The notes below the pieces were generated by a model. It worked only from the letters and a program-made list of their open reading frames with translations, was not told the DNA's origin and did no database searches. From the NCBI RefSeq assembly GCF_000226315.1, contig NC_016026.1, forward strand, positions 1,550,001-1,614,000: a stretch of DNA of 64,000 nt, in the 5' to 3' direction. This DNA comes from Micavibrio aeruginosavorus ARL-13. GTDB lineage: Bacteria > Pseudomonadota > Alphaproteobacteria > Micavibrionales > Micavibrionaceae. The position numbers were made by a program, and so were the translations under genes. Positions 3,405 to 48,602 of the stretch are shown here, one piece after another. Each line of letters begins with the position of its first letter. Positions within the stretch are counted from its first letter, which is position 1.

Positions 3405-3569
3405 GGCGGAAATCCTTTCCGTTTAGGCGGCTAATCCATTGATTTTCAGCCGATTATGGCCGATTTTTACTGGTCAAAGGGATGTGTACCCCTTATATCT
3501 TCATACCATTACGATACGCCTATTTGCCTAACACAAGGTTAGCGAACAATTTCCGGGACTTAAGGGACC

Positions 3570-4859
3570 ATGGAACGGATTTACAGGACATTGATGCGGG
3601 CCGGGACCCCGGCCTTGCGGCTGTTGCTGGCCACCCGCGTCAAGCGCGGCAAGGAAGACCCCGCCCGTTTGAATGAACGGATGGGCGTGGCCGGCCATGC
3701 CCGCCCGGATGGTCCGCTGGTCTGGTTCCATGCCGCCAGCGTCGGCGAAGCGCAATCAACCCTGATCCTGATTACCGCCCTGCTCGACGCGCACCCGGAT
3801 TTGAACATTCTCGTGACCACGGGCACCGTGACGTCGGCGGAGCTGATGAAAAACCGCCTGCCCCCGCGCGCCATCCATCAATTTTACCCGCTGGACCACC
3901 CCATCTGGGTGGAACGGTTTGTCGATCATTGGCAACCCGATCTGGTCCTCTGGATGGAATCTGAACTCTGGCCCAACATGCTGGGCACAATCCGTGCGCG
4001 GAATATTCCCGCCGTGCTGGTCAATGCGCGCCTGTCGCCGCGATCGATGCGCCGCTGGAAACGAATGCGCAGCGTGATAACGCCGATGCTGTCCACGTTC
4101 ACCACCATTTTGACGCAAACGGATGAGCATGCGGCCAATTACCGCGCATTGGGCGCAACCCATGTTATCACCACGGACAATTTGAAATTTGCATCTTTGC
4201 CGCTTCCGTATAACGCCACCGATTTGCACGCGTTAAAGGATGCGATTGGCGCACGCCCGGTCTGGCTGTACGCCAGCACACATGACGGTGAGGAAGGGCT
4301 GGCCTGCACCCTGCACCGGAAACTTTTTATCGACTTCCCCGAATTGCTGACCATTATTGTGCCACGCCACCCGGAACGGCGTGCGGTGATTGCCACAACA
4401 GTGCAGGCCGAACATTTGCGGGTTTGTATGCGCGGGCCGAACAAAGCGTTGCCCAGCATGGATGACGATATTTATGTCGCCGACACATTGGGCGAGCTGG
4501 GATTGTTCTATCGTCTTGCCCCCATATCCTGCATCGGCCGGTCATTCAGCCGCGATGGCGGCGGCGGTCACAACCCGGTAGAGGCCGCACAGCTTGGCTC
4601 CGCCGTCCTGTATGGTCCGATGGTCCAAAACCAACAAGCCTTATATGATGAAATGCGCGATTATGGCGCGGCGATTGCCTTAGCCGACCCGGATATGTTC
4701 GCCGAAACGCTGCGCGATTTAATGCGCAATCAAGGCCGCTTGATTGAACAGCAAAACCGTGGCCAGAATTTTGCCCGCGAAAAGAACGCCGTTCTGGACC
4801 GCGTGATGGCCGCAATTACACCGCTGGTGCCTACCCCAAAAAAATCGGATGCGGCATAA
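3570..4859 (+). CDS. waaA: 3-deoxy-D-manno-octulosonic acid (Kdo) transferase
   Basis: Transfers Kdo from CMP-Kdo to lipid IV-A at the inner membrane, the step joining lipid A to the LPS core. The 429-aa length fits the family. The N-terminal domain has the catalytic Glu in HAASVGE (E60), the segment VTTGTVTSAELM and the MESELWPN motif. The C-terminal GT-B half has VPRHPERR and a GGGGHNPVEAAQLGSAVLYGP-type nucleotide-sugar site. It is the first gene of a tight operon with lpxK (no intervening bases) and lpxL. Confidence 0.95.
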   Translation: MERIYRTLMRAGTPALRLLLATRVKRGKEDPARLNERMGVAGHARPDGPLVWFHAASVGEAQSTLILITALLDAHPDLNILVTTGTVTSAELMKNRLPPRAIHQFYPLDHPIWVERFVDHWQPDLVLWMESELWPNMLGTIRARNIPAVLVNARLSPRSMRRWKRMRSVITPMLSTFTTILTQTDEHAANYRALGATHVITTDNLKFASLPLPYNATDLHALKDAIGARPVWLYASTHDGEEGLACTLHRKLFIDFPELLTIIVPRHPERRAVIATTVQAEHLRVCMRGPNKALPSMDDDIYVADTLGELGLFYRLAPISCIGRSFSRDGGGGHNPVEAAQLGSAVLYGPMVQNQQALYDEMRDYGAAIALADPDMFAETLRDLMRNQGRLIEQQNRGQNFAREKNAVLDRVMAAITPLVPTPKKSDAA

Positions 4860-35136: not shown

Positions 35137-35203
35137 GTCATTCCCGCGAAAGCGGGAATCCATTGGGCGGATCGTATGGATTCCCGCTTTCGCGGGAATG
35201 ACG
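35137..35203. repeat. Dispersed palindromic repeat (copy 3)
   Basis: GTCATTCCCGCGAAAGCGGG and its inverted half CCCGCTTTCGCGGGAATGAC around ATCCAT...ATGGAT. It lies between carB and the ABC exporter. A decayed partial unit precedes it at about 35105-35125. Confidence 0.85.
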
Positions 35204-40513: not shown

Positions 40514-41503
40514 ATGAGCACTGGCGCGGACACAGCGACGCACACGAAAGTATTGATTATTGGATCTGGCCCGGCCGGATACACGGCGGCCATCTATGCC
40601 GCGCGCGCCAATTTGAATCCGATCCAGATTCTGGGTCTGGAACCGGGTGGCCAGTTAACCATCACCACCGACGTTGAAAACTTCCCCGGCTTCGCCGATG
40701 TGATCCAGGGCCCGTGGCTGATGGACCAGATGAAGGCCCAGGCCGAACATGTCGGCACCAAGATGGTTTACGATTTTATCAAGGAGGTGGATTTCAACGT
40801 CCGCCCCTATCGCGCCGTGGCCGATTCCGGCACCGTGTACACCGCCGACACCGTGATTATCTGCACGGGTGCAAAAGCCCGCTGGCTCGGCCTGGAAGGT
40901 GAACAGACATTCCGTGGTCTGGGCGTATCCGCCTGCGCCACATGCGATGGGTTCTTCTTCCGCGGGAAGAAGGTTGCCGTGGTTGGCGGCGGGTCCGCCG
41001 CTGTGGAAGAAGCCATCTTCCTCACCAATTTCTGTGAGAAGGTCACGTTGATCCACCGCCGTGATACATTGCGCGCGGAAAAGATTGCGCAGGACCGCCT
41101 GTTTAAAAACCCGAAGGTCGAAGTGATCTGGGACAGCGTTGTTGAAGATATTCTGGGCGACAACAGCGCCGGCGGCGCAGGCGTCACCGGATTGTCGTTG
41201 AAAAACGTCAAGACGGGTGATGTGTCGAAACTGGATGTTGATGGCATGTTCGTCGCTATCGGCCACGTTCCCGCGACGGAGATTTTCAAGGGCAAGGTCA
41301 ATCTGGACAGCGAAGGCTACATCGTCACCGCGCCGGATTCCACCGCCACCAATATTCCGGGCGTTTTCGCCGCTGGCGATGTAAAGGACAAAACATTCCG
41401 TCAGGCTGTGACCGCCGCCGGTATGGGATGTATGGCTGCGCTGGAAGCGGATCGCTATCTGGCCGCATTGGAATCCGACCACCGCGCACAAGCAGCCGAA
41501 TAA
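40514..41503 (+). CDS. trxB: Thioredoxin reductase
   Basis: NADPH-dependent flavoenzyme that reduces thioredoxin in the cytoplasm. The 329 aa carry the FAD-binding IIGSGPAGYTAAIYAARA, the redox disulfide CATC at 141-144, the NADPH-binding VVGGGSAAVEEAIFL and the C-terminal FAD motif GVFAAGDVKD. The gene is followed by a LysR-family regulator 33 bp downstream, perhaps in the same transcript. Confidence 0.95.
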   Translation: MSTGADTATHTKVLIIGSGPAGYTAAIYAARANLNPIQILGLEPGGQLTITTDVENFPGFADVIQGPWLMDQMKAQAEHVGTKMVYDFIKEVDFNVRPYRAVADSGTVYTADTVIICTGAKARWLGLEGEQTFRGLGVSACATCDGFFFRGKKVAVVGGGSAAVEEAIFLTNFCEKVTLIHRRDTLRAEKIAQDRLFKNPKVEVIWDSVVEDILGDNSAGGAGVTGLSLKNVKTGDVSKLDVDGMFVAIGHVPATEIFKGKVNLDSEGYIVTAPDSTATNIPGVFAAGDVKDKTFRQAVTAAGMGCMAALEADRYLAALESDHRAQAAE

Positions 41504-41536: not shown

Positions 41537-42427
41537 ATGGATTGGGACAAGCTTCGCATTTTTCACGCCGTTGCCGAGGCCGGAAGCTTTACCCATGCGG
41601 GTGAAACACTCAACCTCAGCCAATCCGCAGTATCACGGCAGATCAGTTCATTGGAAGAAAGCTTGGGCGTCACCCTGTTCCACCGCCATGCGCGGGGATT
41701 GTTGCTGACCGAACAAGGTGAGTTGCTGCACAAAACGGCGCGCGATATTTTCGGCCAGCTTTCAATGATCGAAGGGCAGTTGCTGGATTCCAAACAATTG
41801 CCGGAGGGGCCGTTGCGCATCACTGTCGCCGAATTTATCGGCTCGACATGGCTGGCCCCCAATCTGGGGCGTTTCCGTGAACAATATCCGGATATTCAAC
41901 TGACCATCCTGTTGGATGATCGTATTTTGAATCTGGGCATGCGTGAGGCCGATGCCGCCATTCGTTTGTACAAACCGGAACAGCCGGATTTGATCCAACG
42001 TCAATTAACGACGTTGAATTTCCGCATCTGTGCGTCATCGTCTTATCTGAAAAAACACGGCACTCCGAAGGACATCAAGGATCTGCAATCCCACACGCTG
42101 ATCGGGTTCCCGGAAAACGTGCCCGCGCCGTACGCCGATCCGAACTGGCTGTTCCGTATCGCGGGCGTGGATCCGGAAGATTACAACAAGATCATTATGA
42201 TGAACTCGCTCTACGCCATCCAGCGCGCGGTGGAGAGCGATGCCGGCATTGCCTCCCTGCCCGATTACATGATCCGGCAGAATCCCGACCTGCAGATCAT
42301 CCTGCCCGAGGCCGAGCGGGCCGGCGTGGACATGTATTTCGTCTACCCCGAAGAGCGCCGCCATTCCCGCCGTATTGCGATTCTGCGGGATTTTCTGGTC
42401 GAAAACATTCAAAAGACCGGAAAATAA
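41537..42427 (+). CDS. LysR family transcriptional regulator
   Basis: A 296-aa LysR-type regulator. The N-terminal HTH is clear (LRIFHAVAEAGSFTHAGETL, LSQSAVSRQISSLEESLGV), and the rest is a periplasmic-binding-like effector domain. The first helix DWDKLRIFHAVAEAG is typical of the family. It lies after trxB, which makes redox-related regulation conceivable, but the effector is unknown. A terminator follows 33 bp downstream. Confidence 0.92.
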   Translation: MDWDKLRIFHAVAEAGSFTHAGETLNLSQSAVSRQISSLEESLGVTLFHRHARGLLLTEQGELLHKTARDIFGQLSMIEGQLLDSKQLPEGPLRITVAEFIGSTWLAPNLGRFREQYPDIQLTILLDDRILNLGMREADAAIRLYKPEQPDLIQRQLTTLNFRICASSSYLKKHGTPKDIKDLQSHTLIGFPENVPAPYADPNWLFRIAGVDPEDYNKIIMMNSLYAIQRAVESDAGIASLPDYMIRQNPDLQIILPEAERAGVDMYFVYPEERRHSRRIAILRDFLVENIQKTGK

Positions 42428-42459
42428 GTCGATTTATGGCACTGCAAACGCCCTTTACA

Positions 42460-42482
42460 ACGCCCGGTTACGGGCGTTTTTC
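42460..42482 (+). terminator. Terminator after the LysR gene
   Basis: ACGCCCG-GTTA-CGGGCGT followed by TTTT. Confidence 0.85.
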
Positions 42483-42550
42483 TTATGAAAATCAATGCAT
42501 TATGCACTTGTCATGCAAAATACGCATATCAGATCATGCGAAAAATGCTG

Positions 42551-42580
42551 TAGACGCGAAGGAGCGAGTGGGTATATAAA
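42551..42580 (+). promoter_or_regulatory. Putative promoter of the sRNA
   Basis: TAGACG (42551-42556), a 16-18 bp spacer and overlapping TATATA/TATAAA boxes (42573-42580). The start would be near 42586, right at the first hairpin. Confidence 0.45.
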
Positions 42581-42585
42581 GCGGC

Positions 42586-42688
42586 CATCGACGTTTCGAC
42601 GTTGATGGGATCTTCCCAGATCCTACGTCTCCCAGACGTGAAACCTCCCTGTTCAACTCGCCGGGCCCAAGTGGTCCGGTTTTTTTTT
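42586..42688 (+). ncRNA. Candidate trans-acting small RNA with C-rich loops
   Basis: About 103 nt forming four consecutive hairpins. Hairpin 1: 42585-42608, 10-bp stem closed by a TTCG loop. Hairpin 2: GGATCT-TCCC-AGATCC (42608-42623). Hairpin 3: ACGTCT-CCC-AGACGT (42625-42639). Then a single-stranded linker with CCTCCC (42644-42649), complementary to a Shine-Dalgarno sequence. Hairpin 4 is an intrinsic terminator, CCGGGCC / GGTCCGG plus nine T (42661-42688). No plausible protein is encoded here. Alphaproteobacterial sRNAs with C-rich or anti-SD loops are known, and this has that architecture. The rest of the 461-bp gene-free region holds only the LysR terminator and a palindromic repeat. Confidence 0.65.
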
Positions 42689-42716
42689 GCGCGAATCGCG
42701 CCACATCCCCTTTGAA

Positions 42717-42787
42717 GCATCCCCGCGAAAGCGGGGATCCATGAACGCGCGGCCAGATACAATGGATCCCCGCTTTCGCGGGGATGC
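42717..42787. repeat. Dispersed palindromic repeat (copy 4)
   Basis: GCATCCCCGCGAAAGCGGGG half-unit and its inverse CCCCGCTTTCGCGGGGATGC, with ATCCAT/ATGGAT inside. It lies between the sRNA candidate and the first patatin gene. Confidence 0.85.
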
Positions 42788-42888
42788 CTCAATTGCAAAA
42801 AGCACCACATATTTTTTGCGCGAATTGGATTGGGCCGCGATATACTGAACATCCGATTCACTCATAGCGTTTTTACAGAATCACACCC

Positions 42889-44160
42889 GTGTCCGAATCC
42901 AACAGAACCCAGATTGCCCTTTTCAACTATGGCGGCGGATTACGCGGCCTGATCCCCGCCTATATCATGGCGCGGATTGAGGATGTCACCGGACTGCGCA
43001 TGACCGACATGGTCGATATTTTCGCAGGCCCATCAACCGGATCGATTTTGAACGCGGCGCTGAACCTGCGCCACCCGGAACACCCGGAACAACCCAAATA
43101 CCGCGCCCGTCACATGGTGCGTTTTTACGAACGCGAAGGCGCCCGCATTTTCCCTGCGGATTCATTCCGCGAGATGCGCGGCCTGATCCACGATTTCAAC
43201 AACCGCACGATGAAATTGAACCAGCTGAACTGGCTGTTCAAACATGGGCATTACGACCCATCCAATTTGGGCCATGCGTTGCAGGCCTTGTTTGGTACGG
43301 CGCAATTGTCGGATTCGCTCCGCAGTCTGATCATCCCCTGCTACAACATTGACGGCGACGGGATCGAAGCGGTGACAGAACGCGGTGAAACCGGCAATTC
43401 CCCCGTTCACACCAAAAACAACTTCATCAACGAAGGTGGTCATGCGCTGTGGCTGAAAAGCATGCGCACGGGCACGCCCGCGGAACACCGCGCTAACACA
43501 CCACACGTATCGCTCTATGACGCCGTGATGGCCAGCTGCGCCGCCCCCACCTATTTCCCGTGCCACCATTTCCCGGCCACATTGCCCGGGGATTCCGAAC
43601 GCAAATATTATTCGGCGATTGACGGATGTATTTTTGACAACCCGTGCATCAGCTATCTGGGCGCGATACGACAGCACATCCAGCCGAGCCAGAATTTGAA
43701 AATGATTGTTCTGGGCACCGGCTACACCAACAAATCCATTAAACGTGATGAATGGAACCGATTTGGCGCGTTGGGTGTTGTGGACCCGGTCAATGATCTG
43801 CCGCTGATCAACATCTTCTTTAACGCATCCGAATCCGCGTTGATGGATTCCTTCGCGGCGGAGATGGGCGACAATCTATACATCTTCAACAAATCCCTGC
43901 ACGCCGGACGCCATGGCGATTTCCCCAGCATTCAGATTGACGACGCCAGCCCGGAAAACATGAACCGCCTGCGCCTGTTCTTCGAGGCGATCATGGAGGA
44001 AAATGCCCGCACGTTTGATGAGGTCTGCCATATCCTGGTCAGCAACCGCGACCGCCGGTCCGACGAAGATCGCAGCAAACGCAAGGAAGGCATTTTGCGG
44101 TATTTCGTGTCCATGTTCGATGGCCGGGATTCCAGCACGGACCGTTCGCTGGACGATTAA
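42889..44160 (+). CDS. Patatin-like phospholipase, intact catalytic motifs
   Basis: A 423-aa patatin-fold lipid acyl hydrolase using a Ser-Asp dyad. The oxyanion loop GGGLRG lies at 15-20, the nucleophile elbow GPSTG at 47-51 (Ser49) and the Asp at DG 245-246 (AIDGCIFDNP). The length and motif order fit the family; no signal peptide is seen. It starts with GTG at 42889. A second patatin-like gene follows 162 bp downstream. Patatins hydrolyse phospholipids or acyl-lipids; the target (self or other membranes) is unknown. Confidence 0.87.
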   Translation: MSESNRTQIALFNYGGGLRGLIPAYIMARIEDVTGLRMTDMVDIFAGPSTGSILNAALNLRHPEHPEQPKYRARHMVRFYEREGARIFPADSFREMRGLIHDFNNRTMKLNQLNWLFKHGHYDPSNLGHALQALFGTAQLSDSLRSLIIPCYNIDGDGIEAVTERGETGNSPVHTKNNFINEGGHALWLKSMRTGTPAEHRANTPHVSLYDAVMASCAAPTYFPCHHFPATLPGDSERKYYSAIDGCIFDNPCISYLGAIRQHIQPSQNLKMIVLGTGYTNKSIKRDEWNRFGALGVVDPVNDLPLINIFFNASESALMDSFAAEMGDNLYIFNKSLHAGRHGDFPSIQIDDASPENMNRLRLFFEAIMEENARTFDEVCHILVSNRDRRSDEDRSKRKEGILRYFVSMFDGRDSSTDRSLDD

Positions 44161-44322
44161 AAAACGCTGGATTTAGCACCCTAACCCACTGAAACGCCGC
44201 GAATCTGGGGATATTTTCGCGTCGCACAACACCGCAAACCTGACATCCCGGAAAATATGGTCTAAGTTTGCCCTGCGATATGCAAAACAAGTCACCCGCG
44301 TAAACAAAAAGTGACGCTATAT

Positions 44323-46071
44323 ATGAGCAACAGGGACAACACCGATCATCAGGAACCGCAGGATTACGTTCTCTACGTACCCGGCGGCGTGCTTTGGGGC
44401 ATCTACCCCCTGGTCGTTCTCAAGTTTCTTGAGGACCTGACGCAGCTTCCCGTTAGCAAGCAATTCAACAATTTCGCCGGATCATCCACCGGGGCCGTGG
44501 CCTTGGGCGGATTGAATATCCCGAAATCCAAAGGATCAACCGAACCGCGTTATTCCGCTGCCGATGCGCTGGAGTTTTACAAGGTCGTTGGCCGCCGCAC
44601 CTTTCCACCACGGTCCGCTTATTATGAACGCCAGTTGATTATGGATCTGGTCAAGCTGGGGCATGAATTCACCCGTGAAATCGTATGGATGGCGTTTGAA
44701 AAAACGGATGCCCTGCTCTCTGCCGGGGTCAACGGTGCCGGACGGTTGATGAACCGCCTGAAGCGATCAACCACGCCGTATGAACCGTTTATCCTGAAAC
44801 CCATGCGGTTCCTGCACAACACGTTGATCCGCCCGGTGGACAATGCCGTGGAACGGGGAATCAACCATTTGCTGGCCAAATCCCGCTATGACATCAACGT
44901 CCTGCGCGAGGCGCTGGACACGGCCTATCGTTTTGAAGATACGAATGAACCCGTCAAGCTGAACGAAACGATTGTCAGCCACCATGTCACATCCATGAAC
45001 GTGACGCGCAACGAACCGGCCATTTTCTTCCACTTCAAGGACGAAACCGGGACAACGCGCCATGTATCACACCCTGACATGGATATTGTTGACCTGACCT
45101 GCGCCAGCAGTGCGGCCCAGACAATTTTCCAGCTTTATAAAGCCAGCAACGAAAACCATTATTGCGATATCGCCCACTTTGATACGCCGCAAACCCCGAT
45201 CAACAGTTATCAGGGGCGCATGCAAAAGAACAAGAACATCAAACTGATCATGATTGGCACCGCTAAACGCGATGCCGAAATTGACGTCCAACGCTTGAAC
45301 GGCATGCTGTTCCTGCAACAATTGATTGGGCGGCTGGGTGCACACCTGCTGGGTCTGCCGCAACGTTTTATCTTGCAACGCGACCTGATGAATTTGCGCC
45401 AGAATTTAGGGGCGGACAATGTTGTGGTCATTGATAAATCGATGAGCAAGGACACACTGCGCGGACAGGTTTTAAGCAACCCGCGCCTGATCAACGCGGC
45501 GGCGCATTTCGGTGTTGACCTGCGCGCCCGTTCGCAAATCAGCCACCAGGATCGCACACCGTCCCCGGACCTGTTCGATTCCCGTGATGACAACATCGAG
45601 AAGATGGAATCCTTTGGCTGGGATATGGTGTGGGAGAATATCGACACGCTGGTCCCCCTGGCCAAGGAACTGGTCGAGAATGCGGCCCTGCGCGGTCATA
45701 TTACGAACGACCGCGCGAGCGAAATCATTCGCGGAATTGACAAGATTTATCCGATGAACGAATCCGCCATGGCCCATGACCATGATAACGACAACACGCC
45801 GGCCCCCGAGCCCAGTAAACCCAGCAAATGGCTGCAGTTTGATGAGCGCGCACCGACCACGTTGCGCCAATCCATCACGGGATTGTTTAACCGGATTGTC
45901 CAGCGCGACAAATACACACCGCCCCCGCCGCCTGCGGCCCCCTACATCCGTGATCGCGACTCCTTTGCGCCGCACCAGGATGCAGGATCCTGCAATGTCT
46001 GCGCCAGCGGGAATATCGATCCGAAAAAACAGCGCCCGCCCTGTACCCACAAGGGACCAGAGCCGAAATAA
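44323..46071 (+). CDS. Patatin-like protein with extended C-terminus and altered dyad motif
   Basis: A 582-aa patatin relative. The nucleophile GSSTG is at 53-57 (Ser55), with an oxyanion-like VPGGVLWG loop at 19-26. The Asp region is YCDIAHFDTPQ, where the usual DG has become DI, so activity may be reduced. The C-terminal ~150 residues are Pro-rich and charged, with two CxxC-like Cys at the end (CNVCASGN). Start uncertain: ATG 44323 is preferred over GTG 44311, but neither has a clear ribosome site. Its terminator is made from a repeat-like element. Confidence 0.75.
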   Translation: MSNRDNTDHQEPQDYVLYVPGGVLWGIYPLVVLKFLEDLTQLPVSKQFNNFAGSSTGAVALGGLNIPKSKGSTEPRYSAADALEFYKVVGRRTFPPRSAYYERQLIMDLVKLGHEFTREIVWMAFEKTDALLSAGVNGAGRLMNRLKRSTTPYEPFILKPMRFLHNTLIRPVDNAVERGINHLLAKSRYDINVLREALDTAYRFEDTNEPVKLNETIVSHHVTSMNVTRNEPAIFFHFKDETGTTRHVSHPDMDIVDLTCASSAAQTIFQLYKASNENHYCDIAHFDTPQTPINSYQGRMQKNKNIKLIMIGTAKRDAEIDVQRLNGMLFLQQLIGRLGAHLLGLPQRFILQRDLMNLRQNLGADNVVVIDKSMSKDTLRGQVLSNPRLINAAAHFGVDLRARSQISHQDRTPSPDLFDSRDDNIEKMESFGWDMVWENIDTLVPLAKELVENAALRGHITNDRASEIIRGIDKIYPMNESAMAHDHDNDNTPAPEPSKPSKWLQFDERAPTTLRQSITGLFNRIVQRDKYTPPPPPAAPYIRDRDSFAPHQDAGSCNVCASGNIDPKKQRPPCTHKGPEPK

Positions 46072-48538: not shown

Positions 48539-48602
48539 GCATTCCCGCGAAAGCGGGAATCTATGCGATCCATCCATTGGATTCCCGCTTTCGCGGGAAT
48601 GC
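48539..48602. repeat. Dispersed palindromic repeat (copy 5)
   Basis: GCATTCCCGCGAAAGCGGGA ... TCCCGCTTTCGCGGGAATGC. It lies between the 3' end of the amgK-like gene and the pheA start. Confidence 0.85.

Follow-up and report, generated by a model that had tools for sequence, protein, structure and literature searches.

Micavibrio aeruginosavorus ARL-13 is an obligate epibiotic predator belonging to the Alphaproteobacteria (PMC3189940). The window analyzed here, a stretch of 64,000 nucleotides of its genome, carries on the forward (+) strand the thioredoxin reductase gene trxB (40514-41503; TIGR01292 at 409.8 bits, over the cut-off), a gene for a LysR-type regulator (41537-42427), an intrinsic terminator detected by a terminator scan (42459-42478), a dyad, ATGCAAAATACGCAT (42513-42527, with a weak extension to 42536), a promoter-like element and a putative small RNA gene (42586-42688). 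The order trxB, LysR gene, RNA, patatin gene recurs in most genomes of the family. The patatin gene in question is the first of two consecutive patatin-like phospholipase genes (42889-44160 and 44311-46071), and it is this one that stays beside the RNA in most family genomes; the nearest NCBIfam model for both is the CBASS cGAMP-activated phospholipase, with scores of 95.7 and 39.7 bits that fall far short of its cut-off, 200. At 42683-42825, a stretch bounded on both sides by a 14-base direct repeat, TTTTTTGCGCGAAT, contains a REP-like inverted repeat, the arms of which are 42712-42742 and 42762-42792. Because a related genome (G002, locus L003) reads straight through this site with a single copy of TTTTTTGCGCGAAT, ARL-13 seems to have gained an insertion right after the terminator of the RNA; similar elements lie at 35140-35199 and 48541-48600 of the window.

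The promoter consists of a -35 element, TAGACG (42551-42556), and a -10 element, TATAAA (42575-42580), both read in the sequence and separated by an 18-nt spacer. Although the region (42551-42580) is absent from the list produced by a promoter/terminator scan, its position is kept in relatives. If the RNA is assumed to start at 42586 (the 5' end has not been mapped), then its minimum free energy structure consists of four hairpins at -38.7 kcal/mol, as against -25.0 ± 3.3 kcal/mol for shuffled sequences (z = -4.1; 0 of 200 shuffles as good). Hairpin 1 (42586-42607) has a UUCG loop; hairpin 2 (42608-42623) has a six-base-pair stem and a UCCC loop; hairpin 3 (42624-42640) has a predicted stem of seven base pairs, including one U-G, and a CCC loop, with the motif CUCCCA in and beside that loop. 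There follow a single-stranded anti-Shine-Dalgarno stretch, AAACCTCCCTGTTCAACTC (42641-42659), within which CCTCCC occupies positions 42644-42649, and an intrinsic terminator (42660-42688), also found by the terminator scan, consisting of a hairpin (42660-42680) and nine T (42680-42688). An earlier, sequence-only reading had proposed just this layout--promoter, four hairpins, unpaired CCUCCC and terminator with nine T--and the sequence, the fold and the terminator scan agree with it. One stem length needs slight correction: hairpin 1, for which ten base pairs had been claimed beneath the TTCG loop, has nine in the predicted fold; a possible tenth C-G pair competes with hairpin 2.

That the stems should be preserved by compensatory changes had been set beforehand as a check on this interpretation, and they are. 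Among 18 relatives, such changes occur in 14 of the 30 pairs (37 cells; 0 of 500 shuffles as high), including double changes in seven of the nine pairs of hairpin 1 and four of the six pairs of hairpin 2, and the structure outscores every slid control. A covariance model (termed here R1) was built from these 18 sequences; it matches the window RNA at 118.3 bits. When 69 distinct sequences from across the class are aligned to R1, double changes appear in 29 of the 30 pairs (521 cells), with a covariation score of 0.657 versus 0.167 for shuffles, none of which did as well; the stem of hairpin 3 covaries at this scale, and 98.5% of cells in the terminator are paired. The class-wide figures lean towards R1, however, because the alignment is itself fitted to that model. 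(A MAFFT alignment of all relatives, A1, misaligns the 5' hairpins; an alignment of a closer set, A2, and a model-based alignment, A3, were used instead.) Single-sequence folds of 78 full family members yield four hairpins in 41 and three in 33, and hairpin 2 is missing from some relatives.

Sequence conservation is concentrated towards the 3' end. Relatives hardly differ in the part that stretches from hairpin 3 as far as the terminator, ACGUCUCCCAGACGUGAAACCUCCCUGUUCAACUCGCCGG, whereas the sequences of hairpins 1 and 2 do change. Across the class, single-stranded CUCCCUG is present in 70 of 70 sequences, extending in most of them to CUCCCUGUUCAAC, and CUCCCA, the loop motif of hairpin 3, in 59 of 70. 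Two of the three C-rich modules recognized in the sequence-only reading are accordingly conserved; the third, the UCCC loop of hairpin 2, is of local occurrence only, CCC being present there in 10 of the 41 family members with a resolved hairpin 2. In the Micavibrio form, AAACCTCCCTGTTCAACT, an A precedes the CC; elsewhere in the class GCCUCCCUG is more frequent. A scan of approximately 85,000 species for the AAACCTCCCTGTTCAACT pattern returned mostly Micavibrio-like alphaproteobacteria together with a few evident chance matches in other organisms.

With E values of up to 1 accepted, a DNA search matched the RNA in 47 of the 58 relatives, mostly far more strongly than that limit requires. In an even sample of 289 genomes from across the Alphaproteobacteria, R1 matches 118, representing 95 of 224 genera; absences in this larger search are soft, because stricter filters were applied there. 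At gathering scores, Rfam recognizes only a tRNA in the window, and a scan of 18 class-wide loci gave no Rfam match that attained the cut-off of its family. The family is not found in Rfam 15, so that a new model would annotate many genomes. Neither a description of the family nor its core sequence was found in the literature searched, which did not extend to subscription papers.

The gene upstream had been described in the sequence-only reading merely as a flanking LysR gene. It does flank the RNA, but it is more than a neighbor: it encodes an orthologue of LsrB/VtlR whose own binding motif lies in the promoter of the small RNA. Its best relative of known structure is LsrB of Agrobacterium tumefaciens (9HH1; 278 bits, the next being 127), and it meets the test for LsrB/VtlR membership, which asks for LsrB as the nearest relative in sequence and for a gene that follows trxB; this gene order is kept in relatives. 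LsrB and VtlR are the same protein, which activates abcR1 in A. tumefaciens and Sinorhizobium meliloti and abcR2 in Brucella abortus (PMC7486931, PMC8844928). In 82 of the 118 RNA-bearing class genomes, the RNA shares the strand of the LysR orthologue and lies 108-676 nt (median 175) downstream of it; in eight others it is 1.5-5.6 kb away. Altogether, 36 of the 118 carry it elsewhere than directly behind the listed LysR gene, and in some genomes having the LysR gene no RNA was detected by R1 in the 289-genome search. LysR orthologues behind trxB occur class-wide, which argues against a recent statement that LsrB is unique to the Rhizobiales (PMC11975290) and agrees with an older view of class-wide conservation (Sheehan et al. 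2015, a title cited in PMC5461406). A redox switch of the A. tumefaciens type was considered for the window protein and rejected, both of the conserved redox cysteines involved (C144 and C273 of LsrB) being missing, with A and V aligned in their place; its signal is therefore unlikely to be a disulphide switch like that of LsrB.

The evidence for an operator comes from the dyad ATGC-N7-GCAT, which precedes the promoter in family loci with almost constant spacing. Perfect copies stand at 39 of the 59 family loci with an adjacent LysR gene and, in a class-wide test set, at 30 of 39 such loci (one of which is from a family genome), as compared with 0.2% of shuffles. At columns not fixed by the search, the family and class sets show the same extension, GCAT-N3-(T)G-N3-T, and both consensuses are in register with the published VtlR/LsrB box, GCAT-N3-TG-N3-T (PMC7486931, PMC8844928), which is what was required for operator membership; the window copy has five of the seven letters of this box. 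In S. meliloti the box lies at -61 to -49 of abcR1 (PMC7486931, PMC8844928), and here the GCAT half would start about 62 nt before the RNA, a figure inferred from the assumed start. Sites of this kind, which might point to a wider operator regulon, number 16 in ARL-13 versus 5 for a mirrored control; one of them, near hfq, appears to sit within a coding frame.

Presence of the box goes with adjacency of the LysR gene (Fisher p = 1.5e-6, shared descent being ignored). Seven genomes (G005, G015, G020, G035, G037, G042 and G049) have kept the RNA but not the box, and searches at E up to 1e-40 found no LysR orthologue anywhere in them (the G020 assembly being 84% complete). One genome that keeps the box without an adjacent LysR gene (G034) has that gene on another contig, and three (G016, G030 and G031) have neither the gene nor any match to the RNA. 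The -35 elements are better in promoters lacking the LysR gene (4.33 versus 3.60 matches, p = 0.002, shared descent again being ignored). One further locus (L110) has a perfect box with no LysR gene in its stretch. Two others (L229 beyond position 2082 and L227 beyond 1895, both read on the strand of the LysR gene) have that gene and a perfect ATGC-N7-GCAT box followed by a different stretch without an R1 match, which is RNA-like in having C-rich loops and a terminator (fold z = -6.3 for L229) and possibly represents a replacement RNA in the same place.

The interpretation best supported by these observations, and one held with considerable confidence, is that the locus encodes a stand-alone trans-acting anti-Shine-Dalgarno small RNA of about 100 nt activated by the LsrB/VtlR orthologue upstream. 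A compact trans-acting RNA with anti-Shine-Dalgarno modules is what the sequence-only reading had suggested, and the comparative evidence backs it strongly. Computation shows that the structure and a promoter element are conserved, that there is both linkage to the LysR gene and co-loss with it, and that hfq is present; transcription, trans action, LysR binding, Hfq binding and repression of targets remain inferences. According to the proposed mechanism, the LysR protein would bind ATGC-N7-GCAT, centered approximately 60-70 nt before the start, and, once bound, would activate a weak sigma-70 promoter. Transcription would stop at the intrinsic terminator belonging to the RNA gene, and the U tail formed there could load Hfq. 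The 5' hairpins may protect and space the molecule, the predicted working parts being the CUCCCA loop of hairpin 3 and single-stranded ACCUCCCUGUUCAAC; these might pair with the Shine-Dalgarno regions of mRNAs, leading to a block of translation or to decay. The genomic criteria for an Hfq-type small RNA are met, in that Hfq is encoded in the genome (106.3 bits) and the terminator has a U tail of nine T.

With regard to targets, mRNAs of uptake systems are a first guess, made by analogy with AbcR and SorX. Searches for complementary sites, which were confined to patterns, revealed no conserved target. CAGGGAG-N3-11-ATG occurs at 25 sites in ARL-13 versus 6 for a mirrored control, an excess for which the Shine-Dalgarno core alone could account; a ten-base complement before ATG has no site in ARL-13 and only sporadic matches elsewhere.

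Among characterized RNAs, the closest parallel is with AbcR1 and AbcR2 (ar15, RF02345). In A. tumefaciens, vtlR lies after trxB and before abcR1-abcR2, and in S. meliloti abcR1/2 lie beside lsrB (PMC7486931, PMC8844928, PMC5461406, PMC7143759); the window RNA meets the corresponding membership test by occupying the same slot after trxB-vtlR/lsrB, with the same operator in its promoter. Moreover, both have CUCCCA in a hairpin loop (hairpin 3 in the window), followed by a C-rich single strand and a terminator. This raises the possibility that the window RNA and AbcR1 are truly orthologous, though much diverged, a reading that would refine rather than contradict the preferred one and that is retained only tentatively. 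The pairing motifs of AbcR are CUCCCA (M1) and GUUCCC (M2) (PMC5461406), given also as CUCCUCCC and UUCCCCUC (PMC8844928); here the invariant letters are CUCCCUGUU instead of GUUCCC, and the requirement of an M2 between hairpins is unmet, the single strand of the window reading CCUCCCUGUUCAAC. Two 5' hairpins precede the CUCCCA hairpin of the window RNA, unlike AbcR, and its family is class-wide where AbcR is an order-level family. Even with E values up to 10 admitted, the ar15 model (cut-off 40 bits) did not match the region. Nor did it match anything in 38 relatives and 289 class genomes, though these genome searches lacked a positive control. Finally, a different RNA follows the box in L227 and L229, so that replacement in place does seem to happen, and this too counts against orthology.

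Less credible is the notion that the window RNA belongs to the SorX family (RF02784) of Rhodobacter sphaeroides, having been cleaved from the 3' end of the LysR mRNA. SorX, which is cleaved from the RSP_0847 mRNA, inhibits translation of potA and needs Hfq (PMC9438474); it shares ACCUCCCUGUU and a terminator with the window RNA, which its model matches at 28.0 bits (E = 1.2e-4). Furthermore, one family includes three genomes whose LysR gene is immediately followed by a SorX- or SorY-like RNA, two of these RNAs exceeding the SorX cut-off (52.3 and 51.6 bits) and the third matching SorY at 62.1 bits, under the cut-off of 111; the SorY scores for RNAs in this position outside the window include one of 52.8 bits as well. 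(The three genomes are probably Rhodobacterales, as inferred from the SorX and SorY matches themselves.) The window score is nevertheless under the SorX cut-off of 46.6 bits, and the GUC-CUCCCA-GAC hairpin is not modeled in SorX. As for cleavage, an intrinsic terminator separates the LysR gene from the RNA, a conserved promoter and operator of its own precede it, and in genomes lacking the LysR gene the RNA persists behind other genes; membership by this route is improbable. SorY (RF02651), likewise of R. sphaeroides, shares CCUCCCUGUU and a terminator with the window RNA, matching it at 14.2 bits.

It is also highly improbable that the RNA serves mainly as a sponge for a CUCCC-recognizing protein rather than by base pairing: there are indeed two conserved C-rich motifs, one of them in a loop, but the invariant letters complement Shine-Dalgarno sites, conservation in most sequences extends beyond such a core to the longer stretch described above, and no such protein is known at the RNA locus. 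In most family genomes the RNA precedes the patatin gene and shares its strand, and this, together with the 3' terminator, might suggest a leader acting in cis on that gene as an attenuator or riboswitch. Such a reading is hardly tenable, inasmuch as no patatin gene lies downstream in four loci (L011, L018, L023 and L024) although the RNA is retained throughout the class, there is no obvious antiterminator structure as an alternative fold, and hairpins 1 and 2 are free to vary in sequence.

Two other RNAs bear a more general resemblance. SmelC671/sm84 has single-stranded CUCCCUGU between variable hairpins and a 3' terminator (PMC3927594), but is known only in the Rhizobiales and has no reported link to lsrB. 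suhB/MmgR (RF00519), control of which by NtrC and AniA has been described for mmgR (PMC7143759), is likewise an alphaproteobacterial small RNA with an anti-Shine-Dalgarno motif and a terminator; its model matches some relatives at sub-threshold scores (27-34 bits) and the window at 16.2 bits, short of the required 41. Most likely, then, the window RNA works like AbcR, shares parts with SorX and represents a new LsrB/VtlR-linked family of anti-Shine-Dalgarno small RNAs.

AbcR, SorX and SorY have so far been treated as separate order-level families. A class-wide unit consisting of LsrB/VtlR and an anti-Shine-Dalgarno RNA would provide one testable frame for these scattered RNAs. The regulator-plus-RNA unit occurs in an obligate predator and in 118 of the 289 genomes sampled, and its operator is consistent with the box described in the literature. 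A broader history, for and against which the odds seem about even, is that one small RNA gene has stood behind its own LysR activator since the early Alphaproteobacteria, as parent or sister of AbcR, SorX and SorY; that in some lineages a different C-rich RNA took its place downstream of the same operator; and that loss of the activator was followed either by disappearance of the RNA or by its acquisition of a promoter that needs no activator. For Micavibrio, whose genome paper makes no mention of small RNAs or Hfq (PMC3189940), the family offers an entry to post-transcriptional control.

Multiple copies of the RNA occur in several genomes. Tandem R1 matches, two or three each, were found at L221 (2122-2745), L217 (2879-3355), L235 (1161-1522) and L238 (1252-1597), an arrangement comparable to that of abcR1-abcR2, and two genomes (G292 and G301) have five matches each. 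In L040, L042 and L043 (approximately 3540-3665, minus strand) there is a second RNA-like element possessing only the 3' module (CUCCCUGUUCAACU plus terminator), with no LysR gene or CUCCCA hairpin alongside; because the L042 element is located after the end of an open frame, it may be derived from a 3' end, like SorX.
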